Source of the DNA: Bdellovibrionales bacterium RIFOXYC1_FULL_37_79
Lineage (GTDB): Bacteria > Bdellovibrionota > Bacteriovoracia > Bacteriovoracales > Bacteriovoracaceae
NCBI GenBank assembly: GCA_001770015.1
Contig: MEQB01000002.1
Location: 1-64,000, forward strand
DNA length: 64,000 bases
Reading direction: 5' to 3'
Shown one piece after another: positions 9,276 through 40,289 of the stretch. The position numbers were made by a program, and so were the translations under genes. The notes below the pieces were generated by a model. It had not been told where the DNA came from, did no database searches, and was given only the letters and a program-made list of their open reading frames with translations. The first letter of the stretch is position 1. Each line of letters opens with the position of its first letter.

Positions 9276-9718
9276 GTGCAGATTTTATTTCATTTAGCGA
9301 AAATGATTTATTTATACTTCTTAAAAAGGATGAAAGATTTTTAGTTCTTGATGAGTTCTGTTTTTCTACAAGGATATATATAAATAGAAAAATTAAAAAT
9401 AAATCATATGAATATTACTGCTGGTGCTGTAAAGAATTAAGGTCTGACCATGATTTTTCTGAAAAAAATAAAAGTGATCAACTTTGTAAAGATTGTTCGA
9501 AGCTTTCTTCTGAAGATTTAAAATATAGACAGACAATACGAAACATTGATCGTCTACTAGGTTTTGGGGATTTGATTAGTCCAAGGAATAAAAAGGCCTT
9601 GGAAAATTATCTTGGGAACGAAGACTTGCGGATTTGTGAATATGTAAAAATGGCACTTGTAAAAGGTAAAGATTACCGTTTACAAAATAAAACTTCTCCT
9701 TTTTCTAGTTGTGACTAA
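9266..9718 (+). CDS. Zinc-ribbon protein, probable C-terminal part of the preceding gene
   Basis: 150 residues from TTG 9266, no Shine-Dalgarno sequence. A four-Cys zinc ribbon is clear: YYCWCCKELR ... QLCKDCSKL, the CxxC-x~20-CxxC spacing seen in zinc ribbons that accompany HNH nucleases and in some phage proteins. The frame stops at TAA 9716-9718, but the same frame continues with sensible protein to 9859, so the gene seems broken twice. Intact it would have been ~340 residues. Function unknown; DNA or RNA binding is only a guess from the zinc ribbon. Confidence 0.5.
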   Translation: MWIGADFISFSENDLFILLKKDERFLVLDEFCFSTRIYINRKIKNKSYEYYCWCCKELRSDHDFSEKNKSDQLCKDCSKLSSEDLKYRQTIRNIDRLLGFGDLISPRNKKALENYLGNEDLRICEYVKMALVKGKDYRLQNKTSPFSSCD

Positions 9719-9859
9719 CGGGAAGAGAATTATCTTACGACTATTCTCCCACCTCAAAATAAGGTATTGTTACATTGTCAGGAACGCTTCTTTATTCAGT
9801 TCCCTAGGTTCATTCAGTGGCATGAATGGTTGCTGTACTTCTTCAGAAAAAACTCTTAA
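9719..9859 (+). pseudogene. Probable C-terminal remnant of the zinc-ribbon gene
   Basis: After the TAA at 9716-9718, the same frame reads REENYLTTILPPQNKVLLHC, QERFFIQFPRFIQWHEWLLY and ends FFRKNS-stop at 9857-9859. The amino-acid character is protein-like and the frame is that of the zinc-ribbon ORF, so the TAA is likely a nonsense mutation. Confidence 0.4.
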
Positions 9860-10278: not shown

Positions 10279-10473
10279 ATGCTCATTTTTATTGATGAAG
10301 CTGAAATAAGAAATCATAGGGAAATAGGTAGAAAAACGCCTATGAGTGTTTCTTTGCCACCTGAAGTTGTAGACGAATTAAAGAAATTGGCAGAAAAAAA
10401 AGGAATTCCTTATCAGGTGCTTATGAGAAGTTTTATTATTGCAGGATTAGATAAAATGAAAAAAGTCTCATAG
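10279..10473 (+). CDS. CopG/ribbon-helix-helix antitoxin-like protein, no partner
   Basis: 64 residues. RKTPMSVSLPPEVVDELKKL followed by AEKKGIPYQVLMRSFIIAGL is the usual C-terminal part of CopG-type (PF12441-like) antitoxins: a beta strand, then two helices with the GIPYQ turn. Such proteins bind DNA as dimers and neutralise a cognate RelE- or BrnT-like toxin, but no intact toxin gene is adjacent. The upstream 150 bases hold only broken coding-like frames. AGG lies shortly before the ATG. It is either an orphan antitoxin or a remnant of a decayed toxin-antitoxin locus. The stop overlaps the end of the convergent gene by six bases. Confidence 0.65.
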   Translation: MLIFIDEAEIRNHREIGRKTPMSVSLPPEVVDELKKLAEKKGIPYQVLMRSFIIAGLDKMKKVS

Positions 10474-11937
10474 CATTTTTAATGCGTTTAAATAGTCATT
10501 CATCATTTTGTCAGAAAAGTGTTCAAAGCATTTTCTCCTGGTAAAAAATTCGTGAACCCAGGGTTCTTTTAAGAAGGAAAGCATTTGCTTTGGCAAGGTC
10601 GGATATTTTTCCTTTGCGATTTCATTACCAGCTAAGGCCCAAAGTACTTCTGACATATCAATAATATCAGAATTGGTTAGGCTATTTGCGTTCTCTATAA
10701 AATAGGTCAAGGCAACCTTAGCGCTGATTTTATTGCTAAGAAGATGAAGAAACGATTTTCTTGCAAGTACTGCTTTGACTTCTTGGTCATCAATTGAAAA
10801 ATTCTCCAACAATATTTTTTTAAAAGTGTCCATGTTCAGATATTTTAAATTGAATAAATAATCCCTCGGTACGGAGATTGAGTAAGGGGGTGCCTCTGGT
10901 AATGTCTGTTCGATCGATAAAACTAAATTTAATAACTTATTTTTATTATCTTTGGCGGAAAGTATTTTTGAAAATAACTCTGGATCATGACGCGTGTCCA
11001 ATGAAAGTAATGATCGTCCCTTTCTCCTGAGATGATTTTCCACTTTAAGCAGGTTTAAATAAGATTGTAATTCTTTAAGATTTTCATGAAAGCTTTTTAG
11101 GGCATGAGGTGGCAGATCCATGTGAGCTACTTGTCTATTAATTTCTGCTATCCGATCCTCCAAATAATAAATAGTACGGTTTATATCAGTATTTAGCTCT
11201 TTAGAAATTCCCTTCTGGCCAATCCAGCTTGCGAGATAATCAATAACTGTATAATCTATTTCCCCCCAAATTGTATAATCATGACTGGTTGTTGTTAAAT
11301 ACGGTATATCTTGAAATAACTTTGGAAAAAACGTTTGCAGCTTACCTTTCTCCAATATATCAGTTCCATCTACTAAAACTATATTTGATGGAAATCTTTC
11401 CGCTTTGAAGCGAATTGAACCTTGTTCATCAAGAAAATTATTAACAGCTTCCTTGATACCTAAGGCCCCATCATATTGTATTATTTTAAAAGTTGCATCT
11501 TCTGGGACTTCCTCTCCAAAAGGTAGAAAAACAACTGCTTCTTTAGGAATTTTGAAGTCTCCTAAAATAAAGGTATCTTGAGGAAATAAATTAAGTAACT
11601 GCGGACGAAGAGAACTTAGTGGAGTTACAACAGCATAAGATCTTTTTGTCCAATGTCCCCAATGATGATCGATGACAGGTTCACCCAGGCTAAAATGTAA
11701 AGTAGCACTAAAGCGTCCTCTATTTTTTGTTACAGCTTTTATAAACCCATGTGACGGATAAAAATCTGTGAGATGAATTGCATAAACTTTTTTTTCGTTT
11801 GGATCTGCTACATTGGTAGATTTTTGTATAAAGGCCCGTGCAGCTTCTGTGCACGACATTGATAAAGCTGGTTGACTTCCACCCAAGAGATAAGCTGCCA
11901 TGCTTATTAAAAATAGGTTGGATATGAAATATTTCAT
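10468..11937 (-). CDS. Large secreted protein, unknown function
   Basis: 489 residues. N-terminal signal peptide up to about ALSMS (MKYFISNLFLISMAAYLLGG then SQPALS). The mature part begins with CTEAARAFIQ, followed by a mixed alpha/beta region (residues ~45-200: YAIHLTDFYPSHGFIKAV, PVIDHHWGHWTKRSYAVVTP) and a mainly helical C-terminal half. His-rich HHWGHW could bind metal but is not a known motif. No family recognised. Coding sequence is intact although both flanks are decayed genes. GAGAAT precedes the ATG. Confidence 0.7.
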   Translation of the reverse strand: MKYFISNLFLISMAAYLLGGSQPALSMSCTEAARAFIQKSTNVADPNEKKVYAIHLTDFYPSHGFIKAVTKNRGRFSATLHFSLGEPVIDHHWGHWTKRSYAVVTPLSSLRPQLLNLFPQDTFILGDFKIPKEAVVFLPFGEEVPEDATFKIIQYDGALGIKEAVNNFLDEQGSIRFKAERFPSNIVLVDGTDILEKGKLQTFFPKLFQDIPYLTTTSHDYTIWGEIDYTVIDYLASWIGQKGISKELNTDINRTIYYLEDRIAEINRQVAHMDLPPHALKSFHENLKELQSYLNLLKVENHLRRKGRSLLSLDTRHDPELFSKILSAKDNKNKLLNLVLSIEQTLPEAPPYSISVPRDYLFNLKYLNMDTFKKILLENFSIDDQEVKAVLARKSFLHLLSNKISAKVALTYFIENANSLTNSDIIDMSEVLWALAGNEIAKEKYPTLPKQMLSFLKEPWVHEFFTRRKCFEHFSDKMMNDYLNALKML

Positions 11938-30915: not shown

Positions 30916-33891
30916 TTAATCCATCAAACCTTTTATTTTGATTTTAAGATAAGTCAGCGTGCCAGCATCACCATGGGTATCATCGATAACAATTAATTTC
31001 CATATGCCTTGGGAAGGCTTATGTTTAAGCTTGTCAAGATCAGGCGTAACGATCCCATCCATGCCATAAACGTCATTTATATTATCTTCAGTGCTGCCGA
31101 CTTCCTCTCTAAGTTTTATCCTGGTGCCATCAGGATGGATCAAATAAAGGGATAGATCACCAACGTAAGAGTGAGTGATTTTAACCTGGACACTCAGATC
31201 TTTTATGATGGAAATATCGCCATTAATGTTAAAAGTGTAGGTTATGGAGGATTGATCTGGAATATTTATTGAGAGATTTTGCTCCCACGCAAACATACCG
31301 AATTTACCAATTTGAAAGGAGGCTTGTCCGGTTAGATCAATTTGGGTGCAAGATCCGTAACTGCCAATAAGTTTGAATTTTGCCATCTGGTTAGCTTGGC
31401 AACGGCTTTTTAAGGTGACCGAAAGGGGGGTTGGTGAACGAAAGGTGTCTCCAGGGGCCAGCTGGTCCATAAAAACGGCGCCATTAACAGATTCTACACA
31501 TGTATCAATCTCAGGATAGAGATTGATATTTTCCATGTTGGCATTGCCGGAGTTTTTGATGGTCACATAAAGATCACCGGAGGCCCCAGGCGAAATGCCA
31601 CCGTAATCAGGATTTTGTTGATCGCCGTAGTCAATCGTCGTGATAGAGACCATCCCCCGATTGACCAGCAAGGTTACTTTGCCGGTACCTTCTTGTCCTT
31701 CCAAGGTGATCCATTTGAGATGGGCCGTTATGCGTTCTTGATCGGCAGCATCGTCTATCCTGATTTTTAGTCCGCTTTCTTGATAATGATAGGAGGTGTT
31801 TGGTTCCAAAGCAGGAATGGCGATCATTTTTTCTTCTATGATACTGGCCGCTCCTTCAATTTTTTCAATGGAAACCTGGGCCCCTTTGGTTTTGATGTTA
31901 GCAATATTTTTGGCCTTAAAATTAAGGGCCAGTTGTGCGAAAGGATGCACCTTTAAGTCATCCTGGCCACTAATGACAATGTCGCTTAAAACAATGAATG
32001 GCTGGTCATTAAGAATAATCGAAAAATTTTTCTCAATAATTTTGGTGTTGATACCATAAATTTGCAGCTTGTAGTTTCCCTGCACTAAATCAAAGGGAAT
32101 GTCTAATTGGGCAATTCCCTCAGCGTCGGTTCTCGCTGTGGCCTTTAACTCATTACCTTGCATAAGGGATAGGTTGGCGTTTGGCGCAATGGTGCCATCG
32201 TCGTAGGTTAATTTGAATTCTACACTGGGCACTCCTTGCGGGATGGCGGATGGGCCGTTTATAATCAGGTTTTTGGTTGGTCGGGTACGCAGTTTAATGG
32301 ACGGGTCACCAAAGGTGACATAGGTTTCCCAATAATATGTGGATCTATTCTCACCACCATATCTTCGCCAAAGTTCCCTGAGGGCGTATTGGGTGATTTC
32401 AGAAAATTCAGCATTGTTTAATTCATAAATACCCTTATACATATCTTTTTCGAGGAAATCATCCTCATCCCAGTAAGTGCTGTCCATTGATCCCCAGAAC
32501 ATGATGGCACCACTTGGATGTTTGATCCAGGTTTCGCCAAATGATTCATCAACGGTAAATTGACCGGTGATACAAGCATTAGAGATTACAAAAGGGAGGG
32601 CGTTTGGATGATTGAGCGACTGTACATCTTCCTGGGTAACCGTAGGGCCTGCCCACAGACGGGCCCCTCCATGTCCAGAATAATTGATGATCGTGCGTCC
32701 TAGCCTCATGGTTTTCACCACCTGTTCGTCACTGGCCCGATAAGTGATGGCATAGAGTTTATCTCCACCAAGCTGATAAGCAGAAGGGAAAACGCCTCGG
32801 TAACCCCGGGGTGCCATATAAGAACTAATAGCATGGTTGTGTGAACCCTCGGCAACCTCATAACGATCATCGGTGGCAATAAACGAAACTCCCTCCAGCC
32901 AGGATTCATCACTAAAATTGGCAGTTTGATATTTGATAAATTTCTCTACCACCTGGGCCAGTTCCTGTTCGTTTTTAATGGTCACTCGGCCAACTCCAAT
33001 ATCTGGCCCGTTGACGTCAGAGGCGTAGTCATCATTGTCAATAGCCCGATAGTAATGATCGGTGACCCCTAATATATTGGCTGATCTCTTGGCGGGTACA
33101 TGTTCGGCATCACCAAAAATCAAAGCATATTTTACGTTTAAAGAGCGATATAATTCCTGTAATTTGGCACGGATGGTTTCCGGAGAATTGATATTTCCTT
33201 CGACAATGATTCTTACAACGTTATAGCCCAATTGTTTTTTGAAATTTTCATATTGCAGGATGGAGGGACTGTTTTTAAATTGTCCCCCAATGATAAAGAC
33301 AAAGGTTTCAGCAGCCGATCCTATCATTTTTTGGTTGGGGTCAGCTTTGACGTTTATTCGGAAATGATCAATCAACTGATAACTTTTTAAAACTGGATTC
33401 CAAGACAGTGGGTAGACCGTGACCAGTAAAGTGGCCTTGCCAGCCAGGGTGCCGGCATCTGTCACTTCGTAGCTTTTATCAGGATAAAAGTTGTTGGATT
33501 TTTGAAATGCTTTATTAATAAAAAGCTTGCGCTTGCTACCTGGAATTTTTTCCAAGGATTCCAGGTTGGGAATTAGATCACCTGAGAGTTTTACCGGGTC
33601 GCTCAAATCTTTGGTGTCTGCCATTTGAACGTCAACTTCGCCTGCGGGGACATATAATCGAACCACCGGAATTTCTGGCATGCCAAGTTCAAATTTAATG
33701 GCCGCAAATTCATTCACTCCTTTTAAACTGGCCTTGATAAAGGATTTTCCTTCCACCAAAACCTTCTGGGTTTCCAAAGTAATCCCCGTAAATTCATAAG
33801 AGGTGGTGTCGGCTTGTTTGGTAATGGTCACGGCAGTAAAAACGTTAAATGAAAAGGAGAAAAAAAGCATCAGGGTCATAAAATGTTTCAT
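30916..33891 (-). CDS. Gingipain-like C25 cysteine peptidase with C-terminal P domain
   Basis: 991 residues. Signal peptide MKHFMTLMLFFSFSFNVFTA, then a propeptide-like region (LESLEKIPGSKRKLFINKAF; DAGTLAGKATLLVTVYPLSW). The peptidase shows KYALIFGDAEHVPAKRS, GPDIGVGRVTI, the catalytic His in NYSGHGGARLW (~404) and Cys in VISNACITGQF (~438), with WGSMDSTYWDEDDFLEKDM after it. An Ig-like domain follows (~560-650), a CARDB-like region (~670-850), and a proprotein-convertase P domain at the end (SYVGDLSLYLIHPDGTRIKL ... GIWKLIVIDDTHGDAGTL). Exported protease, a tandem paralogue of 34086-35705 with a similar promoter. Ribosome-binding site GGAAGAAG. Confidence 0.9.
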   Translation of the reverse strand: MKHFMTLMLFFSFSFNVFTAVTITKQADTTSYEFTGITLETQKVLVEGKSFIKASLKGVNEFAAIKFELGMPEIPVVRLYVPAGEVDVQMADTKDLSDPVKLSGDLIPNLESLEKIPGSKRKLFINKAFQKSNNFYPDKSYEVTDAGTLAGKATLLVTVYPLSWNPVLKSYQLIDHFRINVKADPNQKMIGSAAETFVFIIGGQFKNSPSILQYENFKKQLGYNVVRIIVEGNINSPETIRAKLQELYRSLNVKYALIFGDAEHVPAKRSANILGVTDHYYRAIDNDDYASDVNGPDIGVGRVTIKNEQELAQVVEKFIKYQTANFSDESWLEGVSFIATDDRYEVAEGSHNHAISSYMAPRGYRGVFPSAYQLGGDKLYAITYRASDEQVVKTMRLGRTIINYSGHGGARLWAGPTVTQEDVQSLNHPNALPFVISNACITGQFTVDESFGETWIKHPSGAIMFWGSMDSTYWDEDDFLEKDMYKGIYELNNAEFSEITQYALRELWRRYGGENRSTYYWETYVTFGDPSIKLRTRPTKNLIINGPSAIPQGVPSVEFKLTYDDGTIAPNANLSLMQGNELKATARTDAEGIAQLDIPFDLVQGNYKLQIYGINTKIIEKNFSIILNDQPFIVLSDIVISGQDDLKVHPFAQLALNFKAKNIANIKTKGAQVSIEKIEGAASIIEEKMIAIPALEPNTSYHYQESGLKIRIDDAADQERITAHLKWITLEGQEGTGKVTLLVNRGMVSITTIDYGDQQNPDYGGISPGASGDLYVTIKNSGNANMENINLYPEIDTCVESVNGAVFMDQLAPGDTFRSPTPLSVTLKSRCQANQMAKFKLIGSYGSCTQIDLTGQASFQIGKFGMFAWEQNLSINIPDQSSITYTFNINGDISIIKDLSVQVKITHSYVGDLSLYLIHPDGTRIKLREEVGSTEDNINDVYGMDGIVTPDLDKLKHKPSQGIWKLIVIDDTHGDAGTLTYLKIKIKGLMD

Positions 33892-33935
33892 ATCTTCTTC
33901 CTTGCGTATAAGTCTTGAATTAGAAATACGAGAAA

Positions 33936-33996
33936 ATCATAACGACGCTGAAAACCTTCAGTCAAAAGGTTTATGAGGAATGTAATATAATGTTAG
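33936..33996 (-). promoter_or_regulatory. Promoter and upstream box of the large C25 gene
   Basis: On the minus strand: TTGACT (33960-33965), an 18-base spacer, TATGAT (33936-33941). The box CTAACATTATATTACA (33981-33996) lies exactly 15 bases upstream of the -35. The same three parts with the same spacings precede the paralogue. Confidence 0.7.
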
Positions 33997-34085
33997 TAAA
34001 GGGCCTGGGTAATTAGGTTTGGTAAATGACAGCGTTTCTTACCATCAAAAGTTAGATGGGAAGAAACGCTGATTAACGAGCGTAA

Positions 34086-35705
34086 TTAAATACGGTTGGT
34101 TCTAAGTTTTATAGAAGGGTCACCAAAAGTTAAATAGGTTTCCCAGTAATAAGAGGCCCGGTTTAGTCCGTTGTATCTTCTCCATAGCTCTCTCAAGGCG
34201 TAATGAGTGATGTCTGAAAAAGTTTCTTTGTTTAACTCAAAAATGCCTTTGAACATATCTCTTTCAAGGAAGTCATCTTCATCCCAGTAGGTGCTGTCCA
34301 TGGATCCCCAAAACATGATTGCTCCATTGGGGTGTTTGATCCAGGTTTCGGCAAAGGATTCATTAACGGTAAATTGTCCAGTTATGCAGGCGTTAGAGAC
34401 AACAAAGGGAAGTGCATCTGCATGATTCATGGATCGAATATTGGCCTGGGTAAATCGAGGAGCATCCCAAAAAGTGGTGGCGCCGTGACCAGAGTAGTTG
34501 ATGATGGATCTGCCGGCCTGGATGGCACTGACGACCTGTTCGTTTCTGACTTTGTAGGTAATGGCGTATAGCTTATCTCCACCAGGTTGATTGGCGTTTG
34601 GAAAAACACCGTGGTAGCCATTGGGGGCAGTATAGGTATCAATTGCAAAATTGTGGGAACCTTCTGCAACAGTGTAGCGATCATTGGTGGCCAGAAAGGA
34701 TGCGTTTTCCAACCATCCTTCAGTTCTATAATTTTGACCTTGGTATTTGATAAATTTATCAACTACTGCCAGTAATTCAGTTTCGTTTTTGATAGTGACC
34801 CGTCCCACACCGATATCTGGTCCATTGATGTCAGTGCTATAATTATTGGTGTCGATAGCAGCGTAAAAATGATCAGTCACCCCAGAAATGATAGAGGATC
34901 TCTTGGCAGGAACATGTTCGGCGTCCCCAAAAATGAGCGCATATTTCAAATTGGTAGATTTAAGCAGCTCCTGGAGTTGTGAACGAATTGCTTCAGGAGT
35001 ATTTATCGATCCTTCCACATTGATTCTGACCACGTTAAATCCCTGTTGTTTTTTAAAATTTTCATATTTTAAAATGGCGGGGCTATTTTTAAATTGTGAG
35101 CCGATAACGAAAGCAAAAGTTTCTTGACCTTCTGAGCTTTTACTCACTTCCGTGGACGTTTTAATCACTACTTGAAAATTCTTAATCAGTCTGATGGTTT
35201 TAGAAGCAGGATTAAAGGTTAGCGGATAGACGGTGATCAATTGTTCTTTTTCACCGCCGATAGTACCAGCATCGCTAATTTCAAATTGTTTGCTGGGATA
35301 AAAGGCGTTGGTTTTTTGAAAAGATTTGTTGATAACCAGTCTTCTTTGGCTGCCAGGAATTTTTTCAAGCGATTCGAGGTTTGGCACAAGATCCATGGCC
35401 AGTCTTTTGGATTGACCAAAATTTTTTTCGTTACCAAAAAGCACTTCAACTTCGCCTTGAGGCGCATAAAATCGAATAACTGGTATTTCAGGCATGCCCA
35501 GTTCAAATAAAACCGCTTCGTAATCATCAGCGCCTACGAGTTTCGTGCGAATAAAATCTGATCCTTCAATAACCAGATTTTCCGTGCTGATGGAGAGGTC
35601 AGAAAATTCATAGTTAACAAGGTCGCCTTGTTGGGTTACTTCAACCCGGCCTAGAACGTTGACGGCAAATAATGCAAGCAAAGAGAGGGATAAAATTTTA
35701 AACAT
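34086..35705 (-). CDS. Gingipain-like C25 cysteine peptidase, short form
   Basis: 539 residues, closely similar over its length to residues ~1-540 of the downstream C25 gene (shared KYALIFGDAEHVPAKRSS, GPDIGVGRVTIKNE, MFWGSMDSTYWDEDDFLERDM, HYALRELWRRYNGLNRASYY, TFGDPSIKLRT). Catalytic His in NYSGHGATTFW (~405) and Cys in VVSNACITGQF (~438). It stops just after the peptidase core and lacks the Ig, CARDB-like and P domains. Signal peptide MFKILSLSLLALFAVNVLG. Probably a tandem duplicate; the two may differ in target or localisation. AAGGAT precedes the ATG. Confidence 0.9.
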   Translation of the reverse strand: MFKILSLSLLALFAVNVLGRVEVTQQGDLVNYEFSDLSISTENLVIEGSDFIRTKLVGADDYEAVLFELGMPEIPVIRFYAPQGEVEVLFGNEKNFGQSKRLAMDLVPNLESLEKIPGSQRRLVINKSFQKTNAFYPSKQFEISDAGTIGGEKEQLITVYPLTFNPASKTIRLIKNFQVVIKTSTEVSKSSEGQETFAFVIGSQFKNSPAILKYENFKKQQGFNVVRINVEGSINTPEAIRSQLQELLKSTNLKYALIFGDAEHVPAKRSSIISGVTDHFYAAIDTNNYSTDINGPDIGVGRVTIKNETELLAVVDKFIKYQGQNYRTEGWLENASFLATNDRYTVAEGSHNFAIDTYTAPNGYHGVFPNANQPGGDKLYAITYKVRNEQVVSAIQAGRSIINYSGHGATTFWDAPRFTQANIRSMNHADALPFVVSNACITGQFTVNESFAETWIKHPNGAIMFWGSMDSTYWDEDDFLERDMFKGIFELNKETFSDITHYALRELWRRYNGLNRASYYWETYLTFGDPSIKLRTNRI

Positions 35706-35888: not shown

Positions 35889-37565
35889 ATGCCGGTACCC
35901 AACACTTTGATTAAAATGATTAATAAAAACGCCCAAGTTGAAAGTTTTCAAATTTCAAAAGTCCAAAATGCCATTTCCAAATGCATTATAGATGTGGAGA
36001 ACGCAACTTCCTGGGAGGCCCAGGAGCGGGCCTTTAAATATGCCGACATGGTGAAGGAGAACGCCTATAATAATTTTTACAATATTGATTTTTTGGCCGA
36101 GTTTTTTACTCGAGTGATCAGATCTTTTGATAAAAGTGAACGGGAAATTCGTATCAGTCGCGTCGAGTTTGCCAGCCGGTTTACCACTTTGCTCTTGCTC
36201 CATTATATAAGCGAAAAAAAAATCCAGCTGTTGAATGACAAAAATAGCAGCGAATTGACTGACTTTATTGGTGCAGTATTTGCGAAATATCTTACTGATA
36301 AGGCACTATGGCGTGAGGTGACCGCTCTTTTTGTCAAAAAGGTTATGCTCAAGTCCAAGGAGGGATTAAAGGACAGTGATTATTTTCCCACCAGGGATTA
36401 TATCCAGGATCAAATTGAGACTACTCTTAAGGATATTGGCGAAGTGATGATTGCCGAGGGTTTTATGATTTTCAGGGAAGGAAAAAAGAAAATCATGCAA
36501 GGTGAAATATCCAAGGCCCAGTTTACCCATAACGGAATTCACAAAGAAAGGGTCAGGCAGACGCTCATGTGGAATATCCAAAATGAGTGTGACACCGTTT
36601 TTGGGCTAAATGATTGGATCATTGGACGCAATGGTAAAAGTTTCAAAGAGCTTATGAAACTTTCCGACCAGAGATTTTATAATGATATTGCCAGCGTGGT
36701 GAACAAGATTGTGGGAAGGCAAAATGAAATAAAAGTGGTAATTATCGCCGGTCCCAGTTGTTCTAACAAAACCACCACCACCACTATTATTGAAAAAGAA
36801 CTGGAAAAAAATGGACTTAAACTCAAGCAGCTCAATATTGATGATTATTTCTATAATTTAAGTGAGCATCCCAAGGATGAATTTGGTGATTACGATTACG
36901 AGATGCCGGAGGCCATCGATATCCCTCTGCTTAACGAGAATTTAAAAGACTTGGTTTCAGGCAAGACCATCAAGCGTCCCAAATATAATTTTAAAACCGG
37001 CATGCGCGATGGATATGTGGATTATAAAGTCGGCAAGGATGAAATTATTTTAATTGATTGTTTGCATGGCCTTTTTCAAAAACTCACTGCCAGTGTCCCT
37101 TCCCGAAATAAATTTAAAATCTACACGGAATCGGCCAATATGCTTAGAAGTTCGGATAGCTCTTACACCATGTGGACGGACATCAGGCTTTTAAAGCGCA
37201 TGATCAGGGATTCACTTTATCGTGCTTATGAGGCAAAAAAAACCCTCGAGCATTGGTTTTATGTGCGCAAGGGCGAGTTAAAACATATCATACCTTATGT
37301 TTATTCAGTGGATGCCGTGCTGAATTCCGGGCTTCCTTATGAGCTTCCCATTTTAAAATCAGTTTTAAAGGATAAACTTCCGGATAAAAAATATTTAAAT
37401 GAATTACTGGCCCAGGGAAGATTGGATGCCTACATTCGCGGGATTAGACTTTTATCCTTGCTTGATACTGTTTTGGAATATCCTCAGGTGGAGGAGGTGG
37501 ATCGTTATTCGCCGCTTAGGGAGTTTATCGGGGGAAGTGGATACGAGATTGCCCATAATGAGTAA
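35889..37565 (+). CDS. ATP-cone plus uridine-kinase-like (PRK family) protein
   Basis: 558 residues. The N-terminus (~10-95) is an ATP-cone-like domain (VESFQISKVQNAISKCIIDV), the nucleotide-sensing domain of NrdR and ribonucleotide reductases. Residues ~280-510 are a phosphoribulokinase/uridine-kinase domain: VVIIAGPSCSNKTTTTTIIE (P-loop 288-295), LKQLNIDDYFYNL, and GKTIKRPKYNFKTGMRDG. The P-loop reads GPSCSNKT, with Asn where Walker A has Gly; whether it still binds ATP is unclear. GAAGGA precedes the ATG. Its end overlaps the next gene, a 3'-phosphatase, by eight bases, so the pair is probably one functional unit. Confidence 0.8.
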   Translation: MPVPNTLIKMINKNAQVESFQISKVQNAISKCIIDVENATSWEAQERAFKYADMVKENAYNNFYNIDFLAEFFTRVIRSFDKSEREIRISRVEFASRFTTLLLLHYISEKKIQLLNDKNSSELTDFIGAVFAKYLTDKALWREVTALFVKKVMLKSKEGLKDSDYFPTRDYIQDQIETTLKDIGEVMIAEGFMIFREGKKKIMQGEISKAQFTHNGIHKERVRQTLMWNIQNECDTVFGLNDWIIGRNGKSFKELMKLSDQRFYNDIASVVNKIVGRQNEIKVVIIAGPSCSNKTTTTTIIEKELEKNGLKLKQLNIDDYFYNLSEHPKDEFGDYDYEMPEAIDIPLLNENLKDLVSGKTIKRPKYNFKTGMRDGYVDYKVGKDEIILIDCLHGLFQKLTASVPSRNKFKIYTESANMLRSSDSSYTMWTDIRLLKRMIRDSLYRAYEAKKTLEHWFYVRKGELKHIIPYVYSVDAVLNSGLPYELPILKSVLKDKLPDKKYLNELLAQGRLDAYIRGIRLLSLLDTVLEYPQVEEVDRYSPLREFIGGSGYEIAHNE

Positions 37566-38007
37566 GAAAAAAGCGATCATTGTTGATTTGGACGGGACCT
37601 TGGTCAGGATGGAACATCGGGTGTTTTTGGTCAGACAAAATCCGCCTGATTGGAAAAATTTTATGGAACAGATTCCCGCCGACAAAGTCAACCACTGGTG
37701 CCATGAATTGCTGGAGGCTTTTTCATTGCGAGGATACAAAATCATTATCATTACCGGCAGGGGAGAGCGTTTTGATCATTTGTCTAAGAAATGGTTAGCC
37801 GATCATCATATAGCCTATGATGGTTATTATTCCAGAAAATCCAAAGATCGCCGGGATGATGCCCTGGTGAAAAAAGAAATTTATCTTGATAAAATTAAAG
37901 ATCATTATGAGGTATTATTTGTACTTGATGATCGTTTAAGTGTCGTCAAAATGTGGCGGGATGAACTAGGGCTTACCACCTTGCAGCCGGACTGGGGAGA
38001 TTTTTAA
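37558..38007 (+). CDS. Polynucleotide 3'-phosphatase-like HAD protein (T4 Pnkp C-terminal domain type)
   Basis: 149 residues from ATG 37558; the longer frame from 37399 runs inside the kinase gene. HAD motifs: AIIVDLDGTLVR (nucleophile and acid Asp), IIIITGRGERFDHLSKKWL, DRRDDALVKKEIYLDKI, and FVLDDRLSVVKMWRDELGLT, ending in WGDF. The pattern RRDDxxVKxEI...DDRxxVVxMWR...GDF matches the phosphatase domain of phage T4 polynucleotide kinase closely. That domain removes 3'-phosphates or 2',3'-cyclic phosphates from RNA or DNA ends. Here it stands alone but overlaps a P-loop kinase gene by eight bases. Confidence 0.85.
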   Translation: MSKKKAIIVDLDGTLVRMEHRVFLVRQNPPDWKNFMEQIPADKVNHWCHELLEAFSLRGYKIIIITGRGERFDHLSKKWLADHHIAYDGYYSRKSKDRRDDALVKKEIYLDKIKDHYEVLFVLDDRLSVVKMWRDELGLTTLQPDWGDF

Positions 38008-39479: not shown

Positions 39480-40289
39480 ATGATACATGTTTTTAATTAC
39501 ACAGATTATTGCAAATTTTTAGTTGAATATGTTCAGTCTCAATTGATGCGAGGGCATGGCTTAAAATCAGCCTTTGCGGAGAAACTAGGATGCCAAACCA
39601 CTTATGTCTCACGTGTTTTAAATAAGAAGGCCCATTTTAGCCTAGAGCAATCCGAAAAAATTGCAGACTTCATCGGATTAACCGAATCAGAAACTCATTA
39701 CTTTCTCCTGTTAGTGCAAAAGGAAAGGGCAGGGACTCATCGTTTGAAAAAATATTTCAACGATCAAATCGAAAGTGAACGGAAAAAGCAACTCATATTA
39801 AAAAATCGTCTTAATGTTCAAAAAAGTTTATCACGGGAAAATCAAGCAATATATTACAGTTCATGGCTTTATTCCGCTGTCCATATCATGCTCACCATAC
39901 CTGAATTTCATGTTAAATCAAAATTGGTAAGCGCCTTAAATATACCGATTCAAAAATTGAACAACATTTTAGACTTTCTAATATCAATTGGACTCGTTGT
40001 TGAAAGCGATGGAAAATACCAAGTGGGAACTGCTCGGATGCATTTAGAAAATGACTCTCCCATGATTTCTAAACATCATATTAATTGGAGAATGCAGGCC
40101 ATCCAATCAATTGAAAAAAATAATCCTGAAAATATGCACTATTCCTCAATAATCACAATTTCCAATGATGATGCTCATCATATTAAAGAATTACTGATTA
40201 GATCAATTTCGGATTGTAAAAAAATTATCAAAGATTCCAAGGAAGAATCAGTTTGTGTTTTTGCTATCGACTTTTTTAATCTCTTTTAA
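39480..40289 (+). CDS. TIGR02147-type regulatory protein
   Basis: 269 residues. The family start is clear: FNYTDYCKFLVEYVQSQLMR, then an HTH region LKSAFAEKLGCQTTYVSRVL and SLEQSEKIADFIGLTESETH, and YFLLLVQKERAGTHRLKKYF. The C-terminal half has the winged-helix-like segment ALNIPIQKLNNILDFLISIG, LVVESDGKYQVGTARMH. TIGR02147 proteins are abundant in Fibrobacter and Bdellovibrio-like genomes and are thought to act as regulators. Start ATG follows AAGG. It is divergent from a secreted-protein gene. Confidence 0.88.
   Translation: MIHVFNYTDYCKFLVEYVQSQLMRGHGLKSAFAEKLGCQTTYVSRVLNKKAHFSLEQSEKIADFIGLTESETHYFLLLVQKERAGTHRLKKYFNDQIESERKKQLILKNRLNVQKSLSRENQAIYYSSWLYSAVHIMLTIPEFHVKSKLVSALNIPIQKLNNILDFLISIGLVVESDGKYQVGTARMHLENDSPMISKHHINWRMQAIQSIEKNNPENMHYSSIITISNDDAHHIKELLIRSISDCKKIIKDSKEESVCVFAIDFFNLF

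Follow-up and report, generated by a model that had tools for sequence, protein, structure and literature searches.

A predicted split-ATP-cone kinase paired with a predicted free-standing PNKP-type 3'-phosphatase in Bacteriovoracaceae

Introduction

The window, that is, the whole 64,000-nt stretch of Bdellovibrionales bacterium RIFOXYC1_FULL_37_79 DNA analysed here (contig MEQB01000002.1, positions 1 to 64,000), carries two overlapping genes, one for a kinase-like and one for a phosphatase-like (HAD) protein, which raises the question of whether the two products share a substrate and what that substrate would be. A sequence-only reading had suggested that they could be an uncoupled end-healing enzyme pair regulated by nucleotides through an ATP-cone. 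ATP-cones have been described mostly in ribonucleotide reductases and NrdR, where they act as switches, and an ATP-cone on a TGS-type kinase would show this switch moving to other nucleotide enzymes and tolerating a large insert. TGS/ThrRS-like "nucleoside kinases" are widely annotated, and the Thermotoga maritima representative TmUK is inactive on uridine; pairing of such a kinase with a 3'-phosphatase would give a testable substrate hint, namely 3'-phosphorylated nucleotides or nucleic-acid ends.

Gene organization

The source genome (G000; 4.36 Mb, 74 contigs) was compared with a genome of the same genus (G001, 85% complete) and one of the same family (G022). The pair locus of the window is 93% identical to that of the same-genus relative Bdellovibrionales MAG RIFOXYA1_FULL_36_14 (L047) and 68% identical to that of the same-family relative Bacteriovoracaceae MAG RS_8_16 (L048). 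The features of the pair are as follows.

35889–37565, plus strand: kinase gene, 558 aa, comprising a predicted split ATP-cone, helical insert, linker and a PRK/Udk domain of the TGS nucleoside kinase type
35910–36080, plus strand: predicted ATP-cone first half, aa 8–64 (PF03477 match at aa 10–62; joined-halves test)
36081–36365, plus strand: helical insert in the ATP-cone, aa 65–159 (conservation; low-confidence predicted helices)
36366–36503, plus strand: predicted ATP-cone second half, aa 160–205, RDYIQDQIE..L..GE..IAEGFMIFREGKKK (joined-halves test; NrdD/NrdA ATP-cone matches)
36729–37328, plus strand: PRK/Udk-fold kinase domain, aa 281–480 (PF00485, E 3e-15)
36750–36773, plus strand: variant Walker A motif GPSCSNKT, aa 288–295 (3/3 orthologs, 0/45 other family members)
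37558–38007, plus strand: predicted free-standing HAD_PNKP 3'-phosphatase, 149 aa (PF25109; AlphaFold model; PDB fold matches 4xru, 5uj0 and 1ltq)
37558–37565, plus strand: 8-bp overlap of the kinase and HAD genes, ATGAGTAA (ORF coordinates)

Both ORFs lie where the sequence-only reading had placed them, and the 8-bp overlap it described is present, since the HAD start codon is the ATG at 37558 (..CATAATGAGTAAG..) and the kinase stop codon ends at 37565. A longer ORF of 202 aa, listed from 37399, was rejected as the HAD gene: it extends the frame mechanically, and 37558 is the start that is conserved. The overlap, which is compatible with translational coupling, recurs in G001, and G022 has an 11-bp gap instead.

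Elsewhere in the window, two tandem C25 (gingipain-like) peptidases are encoded at 30916–35705 on the minus strand, with homologs upstream of the pair in L047 and L048, and a regulator with HTH and DUF4423 domains (39480–40289, plus strand) lies shortly downstream of the pair. A group II intron match lies at 9698–9829 on the minus strand (Rfam RF02012, 59.4 bits); no maturase was found beside it, and the nearby ORF at 10468–11937 had no Pfam match.

Kinase domain

The kinase matched PF00485 (PRK/uridine kinase) over aa 284–479 with an E-value of 3e-15, which bears out the uridine-kinase-type P-loop of the sequence-only reading. The score against the Udk equivalog TIGR00235 was 62.6 bits, far under the 220.3 cut-off, and aa 228–553 were approximately 35% identical to TGS/ThrRS-like nucleoside kinases, of which a paralog is encoded in the same genome (L002, on contig C43). 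In a kinase-domain tree of 48 sequences (the three cone kinases, i.e. the window kinase and its two orthologs, and 45 other family members), cone and TGS kinases stood apart from Udk with a support of 100, and the cone kinases may lie either inside the TGS kinases or as their sister, long branches being flagged. The C-terminal domain is thus assigned by its sequence to the TGS/ThrRS-like "nucleoside kinases" and not to uridine kinase. The cone kinase lacks the TGS/ThrRS-like N-terminal domains and the thrS match that is present in L002, and contains no T4- or Clp1-type 5'-OH polynucleotide kinase domain, its P-loop matching the PRK/Udk type only. Among the organisms covered by the searches, mainly close relatives, a predicted ATP-cone joined to a TGS-type kinase is a new architecture.

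The Walker A Lys and Thr, the catalytic Asp318 and the lid arginines (Arg433, 437 and 440) are retained. The Walker A sequence GPSCSNKT was found at aa 288–295 just as the earlier reading had it, and also in the two orthologs; Asn293 takes the place of the Gly before Lys in all three cone kinases and in none of the 45 others. An EG to DC change in the Walker B-like motif is likewise fixed in the three cone kinases; its Gly to Cys half is unique to them among the 48 sequences, whereas the Glu to Asp half is shared with Udk-like proteins. The two changes could lower catalysis. No residue other than Gly adopts left-handed conformations as often as Asn does, so that the Gly to Asn replacement may be tolerated. 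The position that sets pyrimidine recognition is occupied by His or Tyr in uridine-cytidine kinases of solved structure, and by Gly in the cone kinase (Gly371) and in most TGS kinases. The AlphaFold model of the kinase, built from three sequences, reached a pLDDT of 51.5 and a pTM of 0.33, so that only local helices are usable. TmUK, the only TGS-type nucleoside kinase for which we found an assay in the literature, made no UMP from uridine and hydrolysed ATP when uridine was present (PMC10248530).

Split ATP-cone

The native kinase scored 20.8 bits against PF03477, under the 25.8 cut-off, with the first half alone aligning, and N-terminal fragments scored 16–18 bits; the ATP-cone of the sequence-only reading is thus to be taken with caution. 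When the two halves were joined without aa 65 to ~160, scores rose above the cut-off (29.3 bits for G000 and 28.6 for G022), reaching profile positions 3–87 and 4–84 with the elements in order, against 15.3 bits for a control junction. The junction was picked after inspecting the sequence, so that the joined-halves match is support short of proof. The NrdD model aligned over kinase aa 8–245, and NrdD/NrdA ATP-cone matches extended into the second half. HHalign comparison of the N-terminus with the ATP-cones of six relatives was weak, and a second, tandem ATP-cone gave a weak signal only. The insert of ~96 aa, for which the low-confidence model predicted helices at a pLDDT of about 55–85, is the least conserved segment (42% identity to G022), the kinase domain being the most conserved (83%). 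The KRDG motif is degenerate, reading NKNA or HKNG. Taken together, the profile matches identify the N-terminus as a predicted ATP-cone that is split and somewhat degenerate.

3'-Phosphatase

The claim that the second protein matches the C-terminal domain of T4 polynucleotide kinase was borne out. PF25109 (HAD_PNKP) spans the whole protein (E 4e-34; 118.2 bits against a cut-off of 27.6; profile 2–143 of 143), the PHROG polynucleotide-kinase families agree with this assignment, and Pnkp1 and T4 Pnkp were the sequence matches in the PDB. T4 residues D165, D167, R176 and R213 align with HAD D10, D12, R21 and R68, and D254, K258, D277 and D278 with D101, K105, D124 and D125. All eight of these T4 Pnkp active-site positions are thus present, including the DxDGT nucleophile/acid-base pair, and they are invariant across six divergent homologs. 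The AlphaFold model (pLDDT 93.9) retrieved 4xru, 5uj0, 4xrp, 1ltq and 2ia5 as the top Foldseek ranks, followed by class C acid phosphatases, and the TM-scores to Pnkp1 and T4 Pnkp were 0.80–0.84. By sequence, active site and modelled fold, this is a predicted PNKP-type 3'-phosphatase. The class C acid phosphatases matched by the fold act on mononucleotides, and several of their structures have mononucleotides bound; the HAD would be active on 3'-phosphate nucleic-acid ends and/or 3'-mononucleotides.

Distribution, pairing and selection

Searches that reached close relatives found the full-length cone kinase in only three genomes (G000, G001 and G022), all Bacteriovoracaceae-type and related to predatory bacteria, and no match to it in viral contigs; phages and plasmids matched the kinase domain only, mostly under the name nucleoside kinase where annotated. 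A conserved gene pair, which the sequence-only reading had proposed looking for in other genomes, was found: the HAD lies directly downstream of the kinase in all three. That reading had also held that separate occurrence of the genes would count against it, and here the result is divided. The kinase was never found without the HAD (3/3), whereas the HAD, carried by 53 of 369 Bdellovibrionota genomes, occurs without the cone kinase in 50 of these 53. Free-standing HAD_PNKP is already common in Bacteriovoracaceae, and the HAD of the window is ordinary apart from its kinase pairing.

In the tree of Bacteriovoracaceae HADs, those of the pairs group as a single clade (91/99), and the genes downstream of the pair differ between the two genera. 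Over the kinase gene, G000 and G001 differ by a dN of 0.039 and a dS of 1.5; over the kinase domain, dN is 0.017 and dN/dS about 0.01. The kinase gene is under strong purifying selection, and the pairing is real and selected. A divergent C25 peptidase upstream of the pair is also retained in all three kinase genomes; given this, and because the three genomes are closely related, the adjacency argues less strongly for a joint pathway than it seems to.

Among 30 inspected unpaired HAD loci, 25 adjoin MFS-PlsC (MFS-acyltransferase) and/or PCC genes and none adjoins a kinase. A move of the paired HAD out of such a locus was considered; no PCC protein match was obtained in G000, G001 or G022. Bacteriovoracaceae loci L035–L045 and L066–L083 show a recurrent setting of MFS-PlsC fusion, PCC (DUF296), HAD, lipoprotein-like gene and transketolase. 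In L046 (G027, contig C27, 629–3422, minus strand), HAD_PNKP is flanked in a tight, same-strand cluster by two genes with PADLOC matches, a PDC-S06 ATPase (E 1.7e-173) on one side and a NucC/PD-DExK-like nuclease (E 1.6e-32) on the other, possibly a defence operon with a 3'-end phosphatase. A defence-system reading of the kinase–HAD pair itself was rejected, as PADLOC gave no match. Phage records matching the HAD numbered 2,960, many of them annotated complete polynucleotide kinases; free-standing forms occur in phage contigs, among them viral contig L101 (612–2411), where one lies near a ThyX thymidylate synthase that was putatively recognized by eye.

Proposed role of the pair

We favour, at a rough probability of 0.38, a reading in which the pair, controlled by the ATP-cone, turns 3'-phosphorylated nucleotides into 5'-phosphorylated ones. 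The two proteins would be the products of a lineage-specific two-gene operon: the HAD would clear the 3'-phosphate from RNA breakdown products, the kinase would add a 5'-phosphate, so that 3'-NMPs, or very short oligonucleotides with 3'-P/5'-OH ends, would be recycled as 5'-NMPs, and the ATP-cone would switch the kinase with the ATP/dATP level, as in ribonucleotide reductase and NrdR. The comparisons establish what the genes are, their orthology and adjacency, the selection and the motif changes, and from them we infer both activities, the gating, co-transcription and a common substrate; a common pathway is plausible. A canonical ~200-aa Udk was found in none of the three kinase genomes and is present in 10 of 11 compared relatives; its absence counts for conversion, but shared ancestry alone could also explain it. 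Against conversion stand Gly371 at the base-recognition position, the lack of UMP formation by TmUK (PMC10248530), the Walker A Gly to Asn and EG to DC changes, and the degenerate KRDG motif.

Three other accounts rank below conversion, in the order in which they are taken up here. The two genes may be independent neighbours, a general 3'-end phosphatase having landed by chance downstream of a kinase with an unrelated small-molecule or signalling substrate. The many genomes with an unpaired HAD, typically beside MFS-PlsC and/or PCC genes, point this way, as does the confinement of the pair to one small clade in which the C25 peptidase is equally conserved; the unfailing presence of the HAD with the kinase, the single clade of paired HADs, and the close spacing (8-bp overlap in one genus, 11-bp gap in the other) despite differing downstream genes argue against it, and we regard chance adjacency as rather unlikely. 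The end healing proposed by the sequence-only reading, in which the HAD removes 3'-phosphates, the kinase phosphorylates polynucleotide 5'-OH ends and the ATP-cone acts as a brake, draws on the fact that PNKP chemistry consists of exactly these two activities and that in fold the HAD comes nearest to Pnkp1 and T4 Pnkp, both end-healing modules. For the kinase, however, this claim is not supported: its fold is of the Udk/TGS type and not that of T4 PNK or Clp1, and we know of no member of this fold that acts on polynucleotides.

As for a partner that would seal healed RNA ends, none is visible in G000 or G001: RtcB was not found in either (it is present in G022), absences in G001 being weak because that genome is only 85% complete, and RNA_ligase matches stayed below cut-off in all three genomes. 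Weak PF09414 matches in ~630-aa ORFs of G000 and G001 are probably NAD-dependent DNA ligase, and a PF09511 (T4 Rnl1) search carries no weight, as no control genome gave a match. We consider end healing unlikely. The improbable case is a pseudo-kinase: phosphotransfer would have been lost, and the protein would regulate the phosphatase by sensing ATP/dATP or act as its ATPase. The unique P-loop and Walker B-like changes, fixed in all three kinases, and the ATP hydrolysis by TmUK without UMP in the presence of uridine (PMC10248530) would fit it; the retention of the catalytic Asp, the lid arginines and the Lys and Thr of Walker A, the possible tolerance of Asn at the Gly position, and the kinase domain being the most conserved part of the protein argue against it. 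Returning to conversion, the broader proposal of a new nucleotide-gated kinase class, in which a TGS-type kinase whose P-loop is altered has acquired an ATP-cone and, with its PNKP partner, forms a two-protein, ATP/dATP-controlled route from 3'-P/5'-OH to 3'-OH/5'-P, is doubtful and is put forward speculatively.

Comparison with known systems

With uridine-cytidine kinase/Udk (PF00485, TIGR00235), the cone kinase shares the PRK/Udk fold, the catalytic Asp and the lid arginines, but Udk forms a separate clade and carries a base-recognition His/Tyr where the cone kinase has Gly. The TGS/ThrRS-like family (TmUK and L002) shares with it the C-terminal ..EF(I/T)GGS.. tail and the Gly at the base position; this family has a TGS/synthetase-like N-terminus where the cone kinase has the predicted ATP-cone, and GP(S/T)(S/A)SGKT and EG where the cone kinase has GPSCSNKT and DC. 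Once the insert is removed, both halves of the predicted kinase cone match, in order, the PF03477 domain that ribonucleotide reductases and NrdR carry; the kinase cone differs from that domain in being split by the ~96-aa helical insert, in being part of a kinase and in its degenerate KRDG motif. The HAD has the fold, the mapped active-site residues and the ..GDF C-terminus of the 3'-phosphatase domain of T4 Pnkp and Pnkp1; in T4 Pnkp this phosphatase is fused to a T4-type kinase, whereas in the window it is free-standing.
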